Positions 34,297 to 53,467 of a DNA stretch of 64,000 nucleotides are shown one piece after another (the first letter of the stretch is position 1; each line of letters begins with the position of its first letter). The stretch spans positions 62,001 to 126,000 of the forward strand of contig JACVCD010000001.1 in the NCBI GenBank assembly GCA_016742275.1. The letters are read 5' to 3'. The stretch comes from Gemmatimonadaceae bacterium (GTDB lineage Bacteria > Gemmatimonadota > Gemmatimonadetes > Gemmatimonadales > Gemmatimonadaceae). Below the pieces are notes generated by a model, which had not been told where the DNA came from, did not search any database, and worked only from the letters and a program-made list of their open reading frames with translations. A program made the position numbers and the translations under genes.

Positions 34297-37200
34297 TTAC
34301 GGCAGCGGACCGGTGAAGCCGAAGTTCACAACCGCCTGGTAGTCCGTCGCCGTGGTCGAACCCTGGAGGACGATGCCAGAGACGATGGCGTTCGGACGCG
34401 GGTTCGGCGTCGCGGCGAAGTCGCCGGCCACCATGCCTGCGTTGACCGTACCGGTCGTCTGGCCACCCGACGTCGTCACGTCGGCCGTGGCGTTGACGCG
34501 CCAGACCTGCGTGTTGAGCGTCAGGATACGGTTGATGGACACGTTGTACGTGCCATTGACCGGGGCGTTGATGACCAGCGGCGTGCCCGTGACACCGTTC
34601 ACGTCGATGAAGCCACCCGTGCCAGCGTAAGCCGAGCTCGTCACGCGCACCGTGTAGGCGATGCCGTTCGGGAGGTTGTTCGGCGCGCCACCGATCGAGG
34701 TCAGGTTGACCGTGATCGTCGGCTGGGCCAAGGCGTACGTGACCGTAGCAACCGGCACTGTGGCCGACGTGTTCGCGTTGGCCTGGACGACCGTGGCGTT
34801 GTACACGAGGCCGCCAACCGTGACCGAGTTAGCGGTCGTGGTGCAGGTGGCGTTGTTGTTCGTGGCCGTGTTACCGACGTTGTACGTGTTCGAACCCGTG
34901 GTGGCGATGGCCTGCGGACCGAAGCCCGCGCCACCGGCGCACGAGAGCGAGACGTTCGGCGTCACGCCGACCGGGGCCGTCACCGCCACAGCAACGCGGA
35001 GCGACTGGTTGGTGTAGGTCACCGAAGCCGTGGCAGGCGTGGAGCCAACCACAACGTTGATCGGGTTGCCAGCAGCGACGACACCGTACTGGAGGCCACC
35101 GATCGTCTGCGTACCAGCCGCAGTGATCGTGTAGGTACCAGCGCCCGGCACGTTGAGCAGACGCGTGCCGTTGGCATCCGTGAAGTTACCCGTGAAGCCG
35201 TTCGGACCGCTGATCGAGTAAGCACCCGAGCCGCTCTGCAAGCCGGACGTGGTGATGCTGATCTGCGTGGCCGCGATGCCGTAGTTGACAGTCGCGTTGG
35301 TCAGGCCAGACACGCTGATCGCCTGGATACCCGTGGTCGGGCCGTAGTTGACGTTGTTCACGACAACCGGGTTACCGGACACGAAGTACGTCGTACCAGC
35401 AGCACCCGGGACCGTGTAGATACCCGAGCCGTTGACCGTCAGGCTGAAGCCCGCGCCATCGGAGATGGTCACGTTACCCTGGCCGCCGGCCGGGAGACCC
35501 GTGATCGTCAGGTTGATGGCGTTGCCACCGATGACACCAGACGTGGCCAGACCAGCGCCGTTCGCACGGACACCGATGGCGAGGATGGCGTCGCCGATCT
35601 GCACCGGCGCCTGCGTGGTTTCGAGCGAGTTCGGACGCTTGGCGTACTGGGCATCCGGCAGCGTGAACGTGAACGCACGGTCAGTGCCGAGCGTGCCCAC
35701 GTCCGCGGTGGCGGCCGTGTTGGCCGAACCGAGGTACTGCCAGTGCTGCGCACCGAAGTCGGCCGTCGCCGCCGAGAGGCGGAAGAAGTCGACGCGGACG
35801 AACGCCTGGTTGGTCACGTTCGTGCCCGAGACGAGCTGGGCCTTCAGACCGGCCGGGGCGTTGAAGCCCGCAGCAGTCGTCGGCATCACGCTCCACGAGT
35901 TGTATCCGCCACCCGTACCCGTGTTGAACGAGTTGAGCGCCGGGATACCCTGCGAGATGTAGCCGCTCGAGGCCGAGATGGCCTGGTTGTTGGCCACGTT
36001 CCAGATCTGCAGCTGGGCAGTCTGAACCGTGGTCGGGATCACGCTCATGCTGGTGTGGACACCGAAGATGTACGGTGCCGGCACCGTGACCGACGCCTGC
36101 GCACCCGCCACCGGCGAGTTCACGTTGTCGTTGAAGCGCGCGTCAACCAGGGTCTGCGGGTAACGCAGGATCTGGCTGGTCGGCAGGTCAACGTACGTGT
36201 TGGCGAGCGTGGTGGCGCGGATTTCGACGTTGTCCTGCGCGTTGTAGCCGATCACCGGGGCGGCCGAGGCCGAGACGGTGGCGGGCATCAACACGTCGGC
36301 AATCGTCGGGCTGCTGGCCTGGACGGCCACACGGCGACGGATCGTCTCCGAGACGTTACCGGCACGGTCGCGAGCGAACGTGAGGTAGTGGTACAGGCCT
36401 TCCACGTTCTCGAGCTGGGCCGCATGACCGATGCGGTAGCCATCGCTCGTCTGGCCGATGTTGACAGCCGAGGTCGGCGTCTCAGTGGCGCAGTTCGGAG
36501 CGGTGAGGAACGTCGCGCCTGCGTTCAGCGTGGTGCCGCTGCTCGTCAGAGCAGTGGTCAGACCGTAGTTCGGACCCGTGTTGTTCGGGTTCACGCAGAT
36601 GGCCTTGGTCGACGTCACGTTGGTGTTGAAGCCACCAGCGCGCGAAGCGACGTGAGCCTGCGCGCGGACCGAAGCGGCCAGCGAGCCGGTGACGCCCGTC
36701 GACGACTTGGTCGGGGCCGGTACAACCGCGTTGAAGGCGGTTTCGTTGCCGTCGATGAAGCCGGCGCGTTCGTCGATGAACTCGGCCTGGAACGTCGTGC
36801 CCGCCGAAAGCGAGGTGACGATGGCCGTGTCAGCGCGCGACGCGGTCGAGAAGCGGATGAGCGGCACCGTCTTGTCGACGCCGAACACATCGGAACCAGC
36901 CGACGTGCGGACGTTCAGGAGGCGGTCAGCTTCCGTGTACAGCGTGCGGTACGGGCCGCCCGAACGGGTCGTGCCGGCCGTGCCGTCCCAACCACCGATC
37001 AGGTTCGTCGCGCACTCGGGGATGTCGGCGCCAGTGGCGTTCGGCATCGCAACCCAGTTCGTGTCCGAGCAAGCCGGCGAACCAGCGGTGCCCGCACCCT
37101 TGTAGTACCACGTACGAGCGCCCGGCGTGCCGACACCAGCGTCCGTCGACGCAGCCGTGTTGCTCTGGAAGTTGAACGACGCGTTGACCCAGCCCGTCAC

Positions 37201-39180
37201 CGACGGCGAGGCACGACGGATGTCCGGCGTGGTCGTCGCAGGCGCGTTGTAGTCAAGGCGGTTGGCGACCGGGCGAGCCACGGCCGTCGAGAAGCGGTAA
37301 CCATTGGCGAACGTGACGAGCGGGCCACCGTTGTTCTGGTTGTCCGTCGCGGCGATGACGCCCATGATGTTCTGCTGGTCAGCAGCCGGGTGCTCGTAGC
37401 CCAAGCACTCGATGTTGCCGTTGCCGGCGGTCGTGAAGTTGTTCGCAGCGCCCGAGGCAGCCGTCATGCGGCCAACGCTGGCGTTGTACGTGGCGCGGAA
37501 CGGAGCCGCCGTGTACGTCTCGGTGCTGATGCCCTGACCGTTCTGCGTCGGGGTCGACTGGCCGGCCTGGTTACAGATGGCCGACGTGAACGTGATACCC
37601 TGGCGCATGCCGAGCGTGAGGCTCGAAATCTGACGGCCGGCCGTGTAGAACACAGGCACGATCGTCGCCGAACCCTGACCTTCGGCGCCCGGGCCGCCCC
37701 ACCAGTTCAGACCGTTGGCCGGGTTGTTGGCCGTACGGGTCGGGTTGGTGTACTGCGCGGCGTAACCGTCGATGTTGTTGAAGTTGACGGTCTGGCGGTT
37801 GTTCACAGCGTTCTGAACTTCCTTGGCCGTCGTGCCTTCGGTGGTGAAGACCGAGACCGAGATCAGCTTCTGGCCGTTCGGGTAGAACACATCGGCCGTG
37901 CCGGCCGTGAAGTTCGCCGTGAAGTCAGCCGTGTTGACGAACAGCGTGATGTCGCCGGCGTTGGCCGTGCCGTTCGAGTACAGCTGACGGGCAGCCGCAC
38001 GACGGTTCGAGCCATCGGCATTGGCGATGAACACCACCACCGAGTCGACGCGCTGGCCGTTCGGCTGGAGGTTCGTCACAACCTGGATCTGGTCACGAAC
38101 GTTCGTGATGTCGATCGGCTGGTTGACCTGGACGTTGTTCGCCGAAAGGATACCGGCCTGGATGTCGCCGTTGCCGTCCGTGGTGTTCACGTACGACGTG
38201 TAGATCGGACCCTGCGTGATCGTCTGGATGGTCACGTTCGCCGAGGGCGAAACCGTCACCGGGACGAGCTGGGTGATCGTCGACGCGGCGTAGTTCGCGT
38301 TCGCAGCCGAGGTGGCCGTGACCGTGATGACCGCCGTGCCGGGCGTCACGCCCGTGACGAGGCCCGTGGCCGACACCGTGGCGACCGACGGAACCGTCGT
38401 GCCGTAGGTGATCTGCGCCTGGGTCGCGCCCGAGGGCTGCTGCGCCGAAGCCGAGATCTGCGCCGTGCTGCCGAGCGCGATCGCGAGCTGCGTCGGCTGG
38501 ACGTTGAGCGCCGTGATGCCCTGCGGGAGGGCCGCAACGGTCACCGTCGAGGCACCCGTCAGGGTGGCCGTCGAGTAGCCCGTGCCCGAACCCGTCGCCG
38601 TCACCGTGATGGTCGCGACGCCAGGCGCCACAGCCGTCACGACACCCGTCGTCGCGTTGACCGTAGCGATCGCGGTCGACGAGGAGACGTAGGCGTAGTT
38701 CACCACCACAGCCGTGGCGGCCTTATTCACCGTCGGAACGATCGTCACCGACTGGCCAACAGCGATGTTGGACGAGGTCGGGGAGATCGTGAGGTTGTTG
38801 ATCGCCGCTGCCGGGGCGTTCACCGTGATCGAAGCGGCCGCGACCTGACCGGTCGAAGCTGCAGCGGTCACCGTGGCGTTACCGGCCGCAAGGGCGGTCA
38901 CGCGGCAAGCCGAGCCCGTCACCGCGGCCGAGGCCACGGAGGTGTTGCTCGAGGTGCAGCTCGCGAGCGTCGGAGCCGCCGTCGCACTGCCACCCGTGAT
39001 CTGCACCGCGAAGTTCAGGGATTCCTGAACATTCATGGTCGCCGAAGGCGGCGTGATGGTCACCGTAACCGGCTGGGGCGCTGGGCCCTCAACCGTGACG
39101 TCGTCACCGCAAGCACCAAGCGCCACGAGGGCGCTGAGGCTAAGCAGTGCGAACGCCTTCTTCCGAGAGAAGAGTTGCAT
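34297..39180 (-). CDS. Giant (1627-residue) Ig-like surface lipoprotein
   Basis: The N-terminus MQLFSRKKAFALLSLSALVALGAC is a lipoprotein signal. Residues about 35-310 contain three or so Big_2-type Ig domains (VTITPPSATMNVQESLNFAV...., LTISPTSSNIAVGQSVTIVP..., LNVQPTQLAIALGSTAQISA...). The middle (about 320-1200) is a unique region rich in Thr/Asn/Ala with YTNPTRTANNPANGLNWWGG and several Cys pairs. The end has three to four copies of the roughly 85-residue repeat found in the metalloprotease lipoproteins (LTITGLPAGGQGNVTISDGAGFSLTV...). No enzyme motif was found; a structural or adhesive surface role is inferred. An equally long antisense ORF (1690 aa) is an artefact. Confidence 0.85.
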   Translation of the reverse strand: MQLFSRKKAFALLSLSALVALGACGDDVTVEGPAPQPVTVTITPPSATMNVQESLNFAVQITGGSATAAPTLASCTSSNTSVASAAVTGSACRVTALAAGNATVTAAASTGQVAAASITVNAPAAAINNLTISPTSSNIAVGQSVTIVPTVNKAATAVVVNYAYVSSSTAIATVNATTGVVTAVAPGVATITVTATGSGTGYSTATLTGASTVTVAALPQGITALNVQPTQLAIALGSTAQISASAQQPSGATQAQITYGTTVPSVATVSATGLVTGVTPGTAVITVTATSAANANYAASTITQLVPVTVSPSANVTIQTITQGPIYTSYVNTTDGNGDIQAGILSANNVQVNQPIDITNVRDQIQVVTNLQPNGQRVDSVVVFIANADGSNRRAAARQLYSNGTANAGDITLFVNTADFTANFTAGTADVFYPNGQKLISVSVFTTEGTTAKEVQNAVNNRQTVNFNNIDGYAAQYTNPTRTANNPANGLNWWGGPGAEGQGSATIVPVFYTAGRQISSLTLGMRQGITFTSAICNQAGQSTPTQNGQGISTETYTAAPFRATYNASVGRMTAASGAANNFTTAGNGNIECLGYEHPAADQQNIMGVIAATDNQNNGGPLVTFANGYRFSTAVARPVANRLDYNAPATTTPDIRRASPSVTGWVNASFNFQSNTAASTDAGVGTPGARTWYYKGAGTAGSPACSDTNWVAMPNATGADIPECATNLIGGWDGTAGTTRSGGPYRTLYTEADRLLNVRTSAGSDVFGVDKTVPLIRFSTASRADTAIVTSLSAGTTFQAEFIDERAGFIDGNETAFNAVVPAPTKSSTGVTGSLAASVRAQAHVASRAGGFNTNVTSTKAICVNPNNTGPNYGLTTALTSSGTTLNAGATFLTAPNCATETPTSAVNIGQTSDGYRIGHAAQLENVEGLYHYLTFARDRAGNVSETIRRRVAVQASSPTIADVLMPATVSASAAPVIGYNAQDNVEIRATTLANTYVDLPTSQILRYPQTLVDARFNDNVNSPVAGAQASVTVPAPYIFGVHTSMSVIPTTVQTAQLQIWNVANNQAISASSGYISQGIPALNSFNTGTGGGYNSWSVMPTTAAGFNAPAGLKAQLVSGTNVTNQAFVRVDFFRLSAATADFGAQHWQYLGSANTAATADVGTLGTDRAFTFTLPDAQYAKRPNSLETTQAPVQIGDAILAIGVRANGAGLATSGVIGGNAINLTITGLPAGGQGNVTISDGAGFSLTVNGSGIYTVPGAAGTTYFVSGNPVVVNNVNYGPTTGIQAISVSGLTNATVNYGIAATQISITTSGLQSGSGAYSISGPNGFTGNFTDANGTRLLNVPGAGTYTITAAGTQTIGGLQYGVVAAGNPINVVVGSTPATASVTYTNQSLRVAVAVTAPVGVTPNVSLSCAGGAGFGPQAIATTGSNTYNVGNTATNNNATCTTTANSVTVGGLVYNATVVQANANTSATVPVATVTYALAQPTITVNLTSIGGAPNNLPNGIAYTVRVTSSAYAGTGGFIDVNGVTGTPLVINAPVNGTYNVSINRILTLNTQVWRVNATADVTTSGGQTTGTVNAGMVAGDFAATPNPRPNAIVSGIVLQGSTTATDYQAVVNFGFTGPLP

Positions 39181-39566: not shown

Positions 39567-39773
39567 GCATCAGGTTCCCCAAAGTTTCGGCTTGCGGCTA
39601 TCACATACTGTTACGGGAGGCCAAATCGCTGGCTTATCCACATCATTGACCCCCTGCACCCCCCGCCCACGTCGGCACCGGAGGGTTCAAACGTACCGGA
39701 CGAGCCGCGAACCGCAGGGTCACGGAGTTGGCAATTGGAGGCACGTTCCGGAAGTAAGCAAACGGTTAGCTGC

Positions 39774-39890
39774 GGAGGCGTAGAGACGGAAGCGAATGGC
39801 GGAAGCGATACCCCGGAAGCCACGGCCGGGACAGCCGTCGTCTCGCTTCCGCTTCGCGCTGCCGGTCTGCGCTTCCGCCCCTTCGCTTCC
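39774..39890. repeat. Inverted array of 13-14-bp units (4 forward, 4 reverse)
   Basis: Forward units start at 39774 (GGAGGCG), 39788, 39801 (both GGAAGCG) and 39815 (GGAAGCC). Reverse units start at 39844 (CGCTTCC), 39857 (CGCTGCC), 39870 and 39884 (both CGCTTCC). Spacing is 13-14 bp on both sides around a roughly 20-bp centre. No gene lies between the arms. It has the same plan as the larger array at 52594-53467, with different unit sequence, and lies about 65 bp before the helicase gene. Confidence 0.75.
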
Positions 39891-39954
39891 GCTATTTGCA
39901 GTTCCGTGAGATGACAACCGACTGACTCCTCCCCCTACTACTCTTAGGGCAGAC

Positions 39955-42072
39955 ATGTCCGACCTGCCCCGCATCCATCTGCCGGCCACGCGGCCCGTCC
40001 TGCCACCGCAGCCCAGCGCCGACGGTCCCGCCCTCAATGCCGCACAGGCCGACGCCGCGAGTCACGGGGATTTACCCCTCCTCATCGTCGCCGGCGCGGG
40101 ATCTGGCAAGACACGCACCCTCATCTATCGGGTCGCCAATCTCATTGGCCGCGGTGTGGCGCCTCATCGCATCCTGCTGCTGACATTCACACGGCGCTCC
40201 GCCCAGGACATGCTGTCACGCTGCGAGCGCCTCGTTGGCTCGGCCTCCCAGCAGGTTCAGGGCGGGACATTCCACGGCATTGCGCATCGCCTGCTGCGTC
40301 GCTTCGGCCCCTCTGCTGGCCTTCCGTCGGACTTCACCATTCTTGATCAGTCCGACGCCGGCGACCTCATGGGGCTCTCGCGTTCGAGTCTGGGTTACGG
40401 CGATCTCAAGAACGCACCGCGTGGGGTACCGCGGTTTCCGCGAGCCGAGACCCTGCTCTCGATCTACTCGCGGCACGTGAACACCGAGCAGCCGATTGCC
40501 GATGTGCTGAGTGAGCAGTGGCCGCACTTCCTGTCGTGGGCCGGCGACATCGAGCGCTGCTGCGCAGACTATGTGAAGCGCAAGAGTGAGCGCAATCTGC
40601 TCGACTACGACGACCTCTTGCTGTCATGGGCGCTACTGCTTGAACAGGCGCCCCCGATCGCGGAGCAGATGCGTGCCCTCTACGACCACGTGCTGGTCGA
40701 CGAATATCAGGACACCAATCCGCTGCAGTCGCGCATTCTCCGCGGACTCTGCACCAACGGGCGCATCACCGTGGTGGGCGATGATGCACAGAGCATTTAC
40801 GCATTCCGCGGCGCGACCATCCGCAACATCCTCGACTTCCCGCAGCAGTTTCCCGGCACACGCATCGTGACACTGGAGCAGAACTATCGCTCCATCGCAC
40901 CCATTCTCGAGACCACCAACACACTCATCTCACGGAGCACGGAGCGCTATAGCAAGCGCCTCTGGACGGAACGTGAAGGTGGCGATGCGCCGTGGCTCGT
41001 AACGGTGCGTGATGAATCCGCACAAACCGCATTCGTGGTGGACCGATTGCTCGAACTGCACGAGCAGGGCACTCCACTACGCGAAATCGCCGTGCTGTTC
41101 CGCGCCGGCTATCTCTCGGCGGATCTCGAGATCGAGCTCGCCAATCGACGCATCCCCTACGAGAAGTGGGGCGGTCTCAAATTCCTCGAAGCTGCGCATA
41201 TCAAGGACATGCTGGCGTTTCTTCGTATCCTGGAGAATCCGCGAGACGAAGTAAGCTGGTATCGGCTGCTGCGCCTGCTTCCCGGTGTTGGTGATGCGAC
41301 GGCACGTTCCGCCATAGAACTGCTCTCTCTGCACAACTGGGAAGCGATGGCCATCGGCGCCGTGCGGGCACCTGCGCGCGCGCGTCCTGGCCTGCAGGCA
41401 ATCGGTGCGCTCTTCGACGGCATGCGCCGCGTCGAGCGTGCGGACACGCCGCACAGCCCAGCGGAGAGTATTCGATTGTCGCGGCAGCTCTACGACCCGA
41501 TCCTGCACGCCACCTACGACGACGCACCACCCCGATTGGCCGATCTCGATCAACTCGAAATCATTGCCGCAGGTTATGCCGACCGCACCAGCTTTCTCGC
41601 TGCGCTCGCACTCGAACCGCCTGCCAATACGCAAGACCTCGCCGTTGGCAGCACCGACGAGGATGACGCACTGATTCTCTCCACGGTGCACTCGGCCAAA
41701 GGCAAGGAGTGGGATGTCGTGTTCGTCATCCATGCCAGCGACGGCGTATTTCCCATGGCGCGCGCGGCCGTGGACGACGCGCAGATCGAAGAAGAGCGGC
41801 GACTGCTCTACGTGGCGATGACGCGTGCCCGAAACGAACTCATGGTCACGTATCCATTGCACAGCTACGCCACACGCACTGGCGCGGATTTCGCCTATAC
41901 CCAGATGTCGCGCTTTCTCGATCATGGTGTGCGGCGCACAATGCAACGCGTCACGCTTGGTGATCAACACGAACCGCCAGCATTGCCTGGGCCGCGCGAA
42001 GGGGCGGTCATTGAACCGGTGGTGGACCTTCGCGCACTTTTGCGAGGGCGATTCGGATCACCTCCGGTATGA
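39955..42072 (+). CDS. UvrD/PcrA/Rep-like ATP-dependent DNA helicase (superfamily 1)
   Basis: A 3'-5' SF1A DNA helicase for repair or replication restart. The 705-residue protein has Walker A VAGAGSGKTRTLIYR (about residues 44-58), motif Ia LLLTFTRRSAQDM, and DEAD-like box LVDEYQDTNPLQ. Motif III (VVGDDAQSIYAFRGA), motif IV (LEQNYRS), motif V (STVHSAKGKEWDVVFVI) and motif VI (LLYVAMTRAR) are also visible. It is slightly short of full UvrD and lacks the usual C-terminal Tudor-like extension; the final residues RALLRGRFGSPPV are unique. Which of UvrD, PcrA or Rep it corresponds to is not resolved. Confidence 0.92.
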   Translation: MSDLPRIHLPATRPVLPPQPSADGPALNAAQADAASHGDLPLLIVAGAGSGKTRTLIYRVANLIGRGVAPHRILLLTFTRRSAQDMLSRCERLVGSASQQVQGGTFHGIAHRLLRRFGPSAGLPSDFTILDQSDAGDLMGLSRSSLGYGDLKNAPRGVPRFPRAETLLSIYSRHVNTEQPIADVLSEQWPHFLSWAGDIERCCADYVKRKSERNLLDYDDLLLSWALLLEQAPPIAEQMRALYDHVLVDEYQDTNPLQSRILRGLCTNGRITVVGDDAQSIYAFRGATIRNILDFPQQFPGTRIVTLEQNYRSIAPILETTNTLISRSTERYSKRLWTEREGGDAPWLVTVRDESAQTAFVVDRLLELHEQGTPLREIAVLFRAGYLSADLEIELANRRIPYEKWGGLKFLEAAHIKDMLAFLRILENPRDEVSWYRLLRLLPGVGDATARSAIELLSLHNWEAMAIGAVRAPARARPGLQAIGALFDGMRRVERADTPHSPAESIRLSRQLYDPILHATYDDAPPRLADLDQLEIIAAGYADRTSFLAALALEPPANTQDLAVGSTDEDDALILSTVHSAKGKEWDVVFVIHASDGVFPMARAAVDDAQIEEERRLLYVAMTRARNELMVTYPLHSYATRTGADFAYTQMSRFLDHGVRRTMQRVTLGDQHEPPALPGPREGAVIEPVVDLRALLRGRFGSPPV

Positions 42073-51397: not shown

Positions 51398-52594
51398 GTG
51401 GCGCATCTCATCGAAGTCGCGTTCCGCGGCAATCGCAAGGAGTTCTTCTCGTGGGACGGTGATGCACCGCCGCCGCTCAAGGCGGGCATCATCGTTGAAG
51501 CAGATCGCGGAGAAGACTTCGGGCGTGTGCACAGCACTGGCGAACTCGCCGAAGTGCGGTGCAATGGTTGCGCACATGGGTGTGGCACGACGCCACCGGC
51601 TCGACGCGCGTTGCGCCTGGCATCATCGGATGATGCGGCGGCAGACCGCGTTTTCGACGTTGACAACGAGCAGGCGCGTCGTCAGTCGATGGAGCGTGTG
51701 AAAGCGCACGGCCTGGTCATGAAGCTGACGGACGCCGAGTGGCAGTGGGACCGGCGAAAGCTCACGATCTTCTTCACGGCCGAGAAGCGTGTCGACTTCC
51801 GCAATCTCGTGCGCGATTTGGCGGCGCTCTTCAAGACACGAATCGAACTCAAGCAGATCGGTGTACGCGACGAGGCCAAACGTCTTGGTGGTGTTGGCCG
51901 CTGTGGACGCGAGTATTGCTCGTCGTCATGGCTGCCCGATCTGCGCCCGGTCAATCTTGGTGTCGCCAAAGATCAGCGCCTGTCGCTCAACCCGCAGCAG
52001 ATTTCCGGCGCATGCGGGCGACTCATGTGCTGCCTGCGGTATGAACATGAATTCTACGTACTGAGCCGCCGCAAATTCCCGAAGGAAGGGAAAATTCTCT
52101 CCACCTCGCGCGGTGAAGAGAAGGTGATAAGCTGCGACATCTTCAGCGAGCGTGTCACGCTGCGCACGGCGGAAGGTGACTCGCGTGTGCTGTCGCTGGT
52201 CGACCTTCGTACGGAAGTGGAACAGCACGACACCTTGGCGATGCTCGACCCCGGCGTAACTGCGGAGATGCCGATTTCGCTCGACGCGGCGCAGGTGTCG
52301 ATGCTCGACACGGCCGAATACGAAGTTGTGGCGCTGCGTGATCCGAGTATTGCGCCGCGGCCGATGATGGAGACGGCGGTGGCGGCAGAGCCAGTGCCGG
52401 ACGCTGCGGCTGACGTTGAAGCCGATGATGAAGACGAAGGTGACGAGGATGACGCGCCGGACGCACCTGACGCGTCGACCGGAGCGGCTGATGGAGCCCC
52501 GCGTCGGAAGCGGCGGCGGGGGCGGAGAGGGGGACGGAGGCTGAGGGCGGCGGAAGAAAAGCGGAAGGCGGAGGAGGGGGGAGACGCAGTCTAG
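51398..52594 (+). CDS. PSP1/RicT-like protein
   Basis: The 398-residue protein starts at GTG 51398, 11 bp after accA. It has a PSP1 C-terminal-type domain with cysteine motifs CNGCAHGCG (about 56-64), GRCGREYCSSSW (about 168-179) and SGACGRLMCCLRYE (about 206-219), as in B. subtilis RicT (YaaT). RicT works with RicA and RicF in an Fe-S complex that affects RNase Y. Residues about 325-398 are an acidic then basic low-complexity tail (ADDEDEGDEDDAPDAPD, PRRKRRRGRRGGRRL). The last base of its TAG stop is the first base of the 20-bp repeat array, so the array begins exactly at the end of the gene. Confidence 0.85.
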   Translation: MAHLIEVAFRGNRKEFFSWDGDAPPPLKAGIIVEADRGEDFGRVHSTGELAEVRCNGCAHGCGTTPPARRALRLASSDDAAADRVFDVDNEQARRQSMERVKAHGLVMKLTDAEWQWDRRKLTIFFTAEKRVDFRNLVRDLAALFKTRIELKQIGVRDEAKRLGGVGRCGREYCSSSWLPDLRPVNLGVAKDQRLSLNPQQISGACGRLMCCLRYEHEFYVLSRRKFPKEGKILSTSRGEEKVISCDIFSERVTLRTAEGDSRVLSLVDLRTEVEQHDTLAMLDPGVTAEMPISLDAAQVSMLDTAEYEVVALRDPSIAPRPMMETAVAAEPVPDAAADVEADDEDEGDEDDAPDAPDASTGAADGAPRRKRRRGRRGGRRLRAAEEKRKAEEGGDAV

Positions 52595-52788
52595 GGAACT
52601 GCTACTGCGGTCTTGGGAACTACCACTGCGGTTGTGGACTGCAACTGCAGTTTGCGGGAAACGCTACTGCAGTTAAGGGACTGCCACTGCGGTTGGGGCT
52701 ACTGCACCTGCAGTTTGGGAATGCCAACGCAGTTGAACTGCAACGGCGGTCTTGGAAATCCACCGCCGTTGGGGGACCGCGGTCTGGG
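52594..52788. repeat. Left array: about 10 degenerate 20-bp direct repeats
   Basis: Units with consensus GGGAACTGCnACTGCGGTTnT start at 52594, 52615, 52636, 52656, 52677, 52696, 52717, 52735, 52754 and 52772, a period of 18-21 bp. Each is degenerate, but the core ACTGC(A/G)GTT recurs. The first unit overlaps the stop codon of the RicT-like gene. The matching array on the other side of the four-helix-bundle gene is inverted. Confidence 0.9.
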
Positions 52789-52880
52789 CTAGGTGCGGCG
52801 GAGCTGGTGATTGCGTTCCAATGGCACCGTGTGCGGAGAATGGGTGCAACCCCTGATTGAGCTGGCATCTATCGTCAGCC

Positions 52881-53255
52881 ATGGCCTCGCATCAGGATCT
52901 CAAAGTATGGCAGCTGGCGCAGCATGTGGCCGCACAAGTTCATCGCGCCACGCGCGGCCGCGCGTCAAACGAAGTTCCCGCCGTAGTAGATCAAATTCGG
53001 CGATCCTCGCAGTCTGTCTCGGCCAACATCGCAGAGGGTCGCGCTCTCGGCAGCAGTGCACAATTCAAGCGCCATCTGAGCATCGCGTTGGGATCTGCCG
53101 CGGAGACTGACTCACACATGGCGGCGCTCCTCGCGCTCGACCTAGTCGAGCCTGACGAGGCGCTGCGTATCCTCGACGACCTCGCAGCGATTCAGCGGAT
53201 GCTGGTCTCCCTTCAGCGCGCCATTATGCATGGGAGTAAGCCGAGACCGCGGTAG
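52881..53255 (+). CDS. Four-helix-bundle protein, S23 / 23S rRNA intervening-sequence family
   Basis: A 124-residue protein with the family pattern: QDLKVWQLAQHVAAQVHRATRG at the start, VVDQIRRSSQSVSANIAEGRALGSSAQFKRHLSIALGSAAET in the middle, and a final helix (ALRILDDLAAIQRMLVSLQRAI). This matches TIGR02436/PF05635, whose members form four-helix bundles and include the Avd accessory proteins of diversity-generating retroelements. Biochemical function is unknown; no catalytic residues are evident. I use ATG 52881; a TTG at 52857 would add 8 residues. The gene stands alone between inverted 20-bp repeat arrays, and its last codons overlap the first unit of the right array. No reverse transcriptase is nearby. 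Confidence 0.88.
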   Translation: MASHQDLKVWQLAQHVAAQVHRATRGRASNEVPAVVDQIRRSSQSVSANIAEGRALGSSAQFKRHLSIALGSAAETDSHMAALLALDLVEPDEALRILDDLAAIQRMLVSLQRAIMHGSKPRPR

Positions 53256-53467
53256 GCCCCGACCGCAGTCCCGAGACGGCGGTTGCTGTCCAAAGCTGCA
53301 GAGGCGGTTGAACCGCAGTGGCTTCCCCAGACCGCAGGTGCTGTAGCCCTAGCTGTGGTTGCAGTTCCCCAACTGCGGTAGCGTTTCCCCCCGACCGCCG
53401 TGGCAGTCCCAAACCGCAGTTGCAGCTCCGCCAACTGCAGTTGAAGCCCCCACCCGCAGTAGATTCC
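53243..53467. repeat. Right array: about 11 degenerate 20-bp repeats, inverted to the left array
   Basis: Units of consensus AACCGCAGTTGCAGTTCCCC, the reverse complement of the left-array unit, run from 53243 to 53467 with clear boundaries at 53311, 53329, 53351, 53371, 53393, 53411, 53433 and 53452 (period 18-22 bp). The last unit ends 3 nt before the metG ATG. The terminal units of both arrays share CTACTGCGG when read in the same orientation. Confidence 0.9.

Follow-up and report, generated by a model that had tools for sequence, protein, structure and literature searches.

Among the described systems closest to the array reported here are the intervening sequences (IVSs) of bacterial 23S rRNA genes and the REPIN/RAYT repeats. 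In the 23S IVS of Coxiella burnetii, three to four GACAGAT heptamers precede an S23p frame, and a terminal stem of 28 bp is present; heptamer number differs between strains, and the IVS has already been called selfish, with mobility suggested by earlier authors (PMC4990558). REPINs are dispersed, mirrored repeats without a gene, of species-specific types, present as singlets and doublets alongside a RAYT (Y1 transposase) gene that lies within its own repeats (PMC3116915). The G-rich heptamers of Xanthomonas and Nostoc (GGGAATC and GGGGAYT) form dispersed intergenic arrays in which four units are preferred, with 70–75 convergent heptamer pairs per Xanthomonas genome (PMC4692102). TAACTGA repeats in Beggiatoaceae and cyanobacteria are direct rather than mirrored and have been read as post-transcriptional regulation, with a link to S23 not considered (PMC4679880). 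The role of S23/IVP proteins, the origin of 23S rRNA intervening sequences, and the existence of genomes full of mirrored heptamers in runs of about four have so far been three separate puzzles. Our search found no literature joining S23 or IVSs with dispersed heptamer repeats, although subscription papers lay mostly outside its reach.

We analysed a 64,000-nucleotide stretch of a Gemmatimonadaceae genome (hereafter the window), in which a mirrored, gene-less array occupies positions 39774–39890. The first-pass annotation had placed here four forward and four reverse units at 13–14-bp spacing just before a helicase gene, and every element of that description holds. The forward units start at 39774 (GGAGGCG), 39788 and 39801 (both GGAAGCG), and 39815 (GGAAGCC), and the reverse units at 39844 (CGCTTCC), 39857 (CGCTGCC), and 39870 and 39884 (both CGCTTCC); five of the eight are exact, and those at 39774, 39815 and 39857 have one mismatch each. 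Successive steps are 14, 13 and 14 bp in the forward arm and 13, 13 and 14 bp in the reverse arm. The unit is better delimited as CGGAAGC plus a variable spacer of 6–7 bp, which gives a plus-strand left arm at 39773–39820 (units at 39773, 39787, 39800 and 39814) and a minus-strand right arm at 39845–39891 (GCTTCCG-type units at 39845, 39858, 39871 and 39885). The 24-bp loop between them (39821–39844) is unique and contains no S23 frame. Outside the arms lie a left terminal segment, GGAAGTAAGCAAACGGTTAGCTG (39750–39772, plus strand), which, compared with other array ends in the genome, matches the family end GGAACAGCAAACAG in diverged form, and a right terminal segment, CTATTTGCAGTTC (39892–39904, minus strand; family end CTGTTTGCTGTTC); both boundaries are approximate. 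A UvrD/REP-family helicase gene (39955–42072, plus strand) starts 64 bp after the array. Just left of the intergenic region, the minus strand carries a 1627-aa open frame with Ig-like-looking repeats (34297–39180). Within the window the array is the sole one of its kind (two overlapping 6-mers score).

The array is a real, gene-less member of a family of mirrored repeat arrays linked to S23 genes. It meets the criterion for that family, namely mirrored phased arrays of one unit with the G-rich strand inward, and its unit is that of the arrays around an S23 gene of the same genome. Its period is 13–14 bp and not exactly 7, corresponding to roughly a pair of heptamers with only one of the two conserved; other genera typically show period 7, but membership does not require it. 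The family shares with the 23S IVS an S23 frame within terminal inverted repeats, and the 28-bp IVS stem is the length of four heptamers (PMC4990558). However, IVSs lie in rRNA genes and are excised by RNase III. The array described here has protein genes on both sides, encloses no gene and is one of a dispersed family; with neither an rRNA location nor an S23 frame of its own, it does not qualify as an IVS. The array resembles MITEs in being short and gene-less with inverted ends, and internal-deletion derivatives are seen in the wider family, but no DDE transposase partner has been identified, no target-site duplication was seen, and loops are not common to the copies. Nor is there a parent with a known transposase, as the MITE definition demands; S23 is the only gene found enclosed by the CGGAAGC unit. 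The best reading is of a REPIN-like, non-autonomous array that is maintained or spread by an S23 partner.

Pattern searches and DNA searches located the members of this family across the genome (G000). They recovered 40 exact CGGAAGCG-spacer-CGGAAGC pairs, compared with 0–4 in each of 29 congeners searched, and these group into ∼24 places including the array at 39774–39890. About 12 places are two-armed, mostly with four units per arm, and about 12 are single-armed, again mostly with four units. Arms terminate in GGAACAGCAAACAG or its complement, and the arrays are intergenic, near gene ends. Units are constant, while spacers vary from copy to copy and loops differ among all copies. Just one copy encloses a gene, and that gene is S23 (L014, at C29:291431), which sits between 4+4 CGGAAGC units. 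The genome scan proposed in the first-pass annotation thus yields ∼23 further arrays of the GGAAGCG-type unit and one enclosed S23-family gene, and it supports the annotation's reading of the locus as the plan of an S23 element without the gene and with a different unit: the window's S23 gene has CTGCGGT-type units, and the GGAAGCG unit belongs to L014.

In all, a profile search identified six S23 genes (PF05635, 23S_rRNA_IVP) in this genome. Another of these (L012) is enclosed by CGTAAAG arrays. The window's own S23 element (52585–53465) consists of a left array of CTGCGGT/CTGCAGT-type units (52585–52790, plus strand), a gene for a 124-aa four-helix-bundle protein (52881–53255, plus strand) and an inverted right array (53256–53465, minus strand), with a period of ∼20 bp and a unit family that differs from that at 39774–39890. 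Congeners have orthologously placed S23 genes with inverted arrays, in which the unit is species-specific and common to both arms. There are variants of this layout. In G006 and G008, two complete mirrored arrays bracket the S23 gene (L142 and L143) instead of one arm per side, and in G014 (L144) the AGCTCGCGCCC arrays flanking the gene are apparently direct rather than inverted. Relocation of the L014 gene was considered and rejected, since the gene and its left flank are at the same place in G006, G008 and G014.

The association of S23 genes with inverted heptamers is observed across phyla. We sampled S23 loci from the wider family and from 80 named genomes of many phyla and applied a strict test, an exact tandem pair on each side of the gene in mirrored order. 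At period 7, 28 of 96 loci passed, made up of 18 of the 70 named loci and 10 of the 26 family loci; every other period between 4 and 15 scored 4 or less, and off-centre controls gave 0/172. Most S23 loci (68/96) failed this test. A looser test, one 7-mer at least 3+3 around the gene, was passed by 33 of 117 S23 loci (named 13/69, family 7/27, genus 10/16, own genome 3/5) versus 1 of 236 controls. The S23 genes of Mesorhizobium and Phormidium, for example, are flanked by (TAGGCAG)4/(CTGCCTA)3 and (GGGAGTC)4/4, and further inverted tandem heptamers surround S23 genes in Nodularia, Nostoc, Ruminococcus, Planctomycetota and Cloacimonadota. The G-rich strand points toward the gene in 27 of 30 cases. 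Unit distance declines as S23 identity rises (Mantel r = −0.32, p = 0.0002), a correlation that shared descent alone could explain.

These repeats might instead be passive, the products of slippage, G-quadruplex propensity and ordinary recombination, with S23 genes merely sitting among heptamer arrays. The four-unit-preferring heptamers of Xanthomonas and Nostoc have indeed been described as quadruplex-forming, with no mention of S23 (PMC4692102), and homologous sites such as L285 and L286 differ in their number of units. Slippage, however, yields neither mirrored arms, nor a period around S23 genes that is almost exclusively 7, nor polarity toward the gene. A counterexample comes from the genome of a relative, G067, where (GTATCAG)n arrays flank an S23 gene (L123) on both sides. 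Tandem GTATCAG pairs number 181 in G067 and 19 in its congener G106, and are absent from the other seven of the eight further genomes searched. Of the GTATCAG places in G067, 16 were read; 14 of them are convergent arrays without a gene, each arm having two or more units (mostly 2–5 forward and 2–11 reverse), and their loops are unrelated. Neither GTATCAG nor CGGAAGC meets the G-quadruplex criterion of four runs of three or more G. GTATCAG, although it lacks any GGG, occurs dispersed in mirrored arrays of 3–5 units; G-quadruplexes alone therefore do not account for the preference for four units. We regard purely passive repeats as unlikely.

A second alternative gives the arrays a host function as binding or processing sites (a terminator, an RNase III substrate or a nucleoid site), with S23 as a regulator and no mobility. 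It suits the intergenic position of the arrays near gene ends, the retention of several sites between species, and the cutting of the 23S IVS stem by RNase III (PMC4990558). Four other array sites of the present genome are shared with G006 and G008, where the units are different and species-specific. Such sharing indicates that copies persist while their units change in concert, and that many copies have long been in place and seldom move. S23 genes, too, are often at orthologous places, which counts against a mobility reading. On the other side, unit sequence differs between close species at the same site, and presence or absence at 94–99% identical flanks, together with internal-deletion derivatives, suits a mobile unit.

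The plasmid observations are as follows. On Nostoc plasmid C052 and in N. edaphicum, an S23 cassette separates a TraM-like gene from the gene that follows; at the same site the cassette is missing from two C057 plasmids, and ATCC 53789 has a gene-less mirrored array in its place. The Nostoc cassettes are 99.2% identical (gene 362/363), compared with 82.7% and 91.4% for the flanks, although the right boundary of this step is gradual and the step could reflect gene conversion through the flanks. Two other Nostoc plasmids carry an internally deleted copy comprising the left heptamers, the leader, the final 41 bp of the S23 frame and the right heptamers. In Anabaena sp. 90 an S23 cassette splits cas6 and cas4, and a 98.7% identical Dolichospermum plasmid lacks it; such interruption of gene pairs also counts against a host function, which we consider a rather doubtful explanation. 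In its cas6–cas4 interval, the Dolichospermum plasmid (L292, 1119–1365) has a palindromic repeat of another kind, GTAGGTTGGGTT. A two-plasmid pair from Calothrix (L283 and L284) was dropped as evidence of mobility, as it falls within a larger shared region. We saw no target-site duplication, and none is evident at the Nostoc tra site.

At the corresponding place between genes, where the flanks are ∼80% identical, G006 and G008 lack the array found at 39774–39890, and it is also missing upstream of the helicase gene in congener G003. No clean empty site was found, the G006 and G008 flanks being too diverged. G008 has TCACGGGACTGGCACCAGTACCGTGA near the left flank of the matching site. Insertion of the array into the tip of a palindrome was considered and not upheld: divergence is too great on the right-hand side, and CAGTTC is part of the family end as well.

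S23 homologues form pentameric rings and have the same fold as Avd, a subunit of reverse-transcriptase complexes of diversity-generating retroelements, and to our knowledge S23-family proteins have no known function; they lack a recognisable catalytic motif. The proteins of L014 and of the window's S23 gene both score above the cut-offs for PF05635 and TIGR02436. The structure of the window protein is predicted with high confidence (pLDDT 92.6) and matches the S23 structures 2GSC (Xanthomonas XCC0516) and 2RLD, with Avd (4DWL) and the DGR ribonucleoprotein 8UB7 as weaker matches. Sequence searches with the S23 protein returned 2GSC and 2RLD alone. The resemblance to Avd raises the idea that S23 partners a reverse transcriptase as Avd does, the arrays being copied from RNA. 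TM values of 0.7–0.8 to 4DWL and 8UB7, a weak bAvd profile match for L247 and a single reverse-transcriptase-like gene in the genome speak for this route. That gene's RVT_1 match is marginal, however (30.3 bits versus a cut-off of 29.6), and no reverse transcriptase is annotated beside the plasmid S23 genes inspected, leaving the route improbable at present. The lone reverse-transcriptase-like frame (L302, C4:68494–68940) carries YVDD.

Movement of the arrays as REPINs or REPs by a RAYT would follow the same population logic, with dispersed mirrored pairs, singlets, species-specific types and a gene within its own repeats (PMC3116915), here S23. The array behaves like a REPIN population, but the lack of a RAYT excludes it from the REPINs: no Y1 transposase (Y1_Tnp, PF01797) was found in the genome, which is 99.6% complete. 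In addition, the repeats form a phased array where a REPIN has one palindrome, and the associated gene is S23. A RAYT was accordingly rejected as the mover, and this origin is very improbable. Chance clustering of a common GC-rich word can be ruled out for practical purposes; although CGGAAGCG is slightly over-represented in the window (12 observed versus 4.9 expected), the composition-matched control proposed in the first-pass annotation gave no comparable array in 500 third-order Markov windows, and the reversed pattern has no match in a genome with ∼23 further arrays.

We therefore return to the S23-linked reading, and consider it likely that the array at 39774–39890 belongs, as a non-autonomous copy without a gene, to a repeat family associated with a single S23 gene of the same genome, with S23 most likely copying or converting arrays in trans. 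A full element would comprise a short end, about four inward-facing units, the S23 gene, about four mirrored units and an end; a gene-less copy would retain only the mirrored units. The S23 protein most likely recognises its own unit, which it would probably meet as a hairpin or in single-stranded form, and, with an unidentified nuclease or polymerase, would copy or convert arrays in trans. Under this proposal units would be homogenised genome-wide and differ between species. The anatomy, the unit shared with one S23 gene, the association across the genome and across phyla, the presence/absence polymorphism and the deletion derivatives are read directly from the DNA; that S23 is the agent, in what form it meets the nucleic acid, and what acts as catalyst are best inferences, and S23 has not been shown to drive the arrays.

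S23/IVP proteins, 23S IVSs and mirrored heptamer repeats can now be placed on one anatomical plan, which fits the 23S rRNA IVSs and the Xanthomonas and Nostoc heptamers and, occurring in many bacterial phyla, may represent an unrecognised kind of small mobile element. A broader conjecture, for which we judge the case evenly balanced, is that S23 proteins are mobility or homing factors of bacteria-wide minimal elements with inverted heptamer arrays, that gene-less arrays are their non-autonomous passengers, and that 23S rRNA IVSs, the Xanthomonas GGGAATC repeats and the cyanobacterial heptamer repeats are all included. If S23 does spread or homogenise arrays, it would drive a bacterial REPIN-like system with a four-helix-bundle protein of Avd-related fold and no known nuclease. 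The hypothesis is directly testable, as each S23 gene identifies its own repeat. One further locus in the genome has an unusual layout: at L264 (C29:306579–307884), two full GGAAGC-type elements flank ∼1.1 kb, and G006 and G008 have a single array site without that ∼1.1 kb, an arrangement that resembles a composite insertion.
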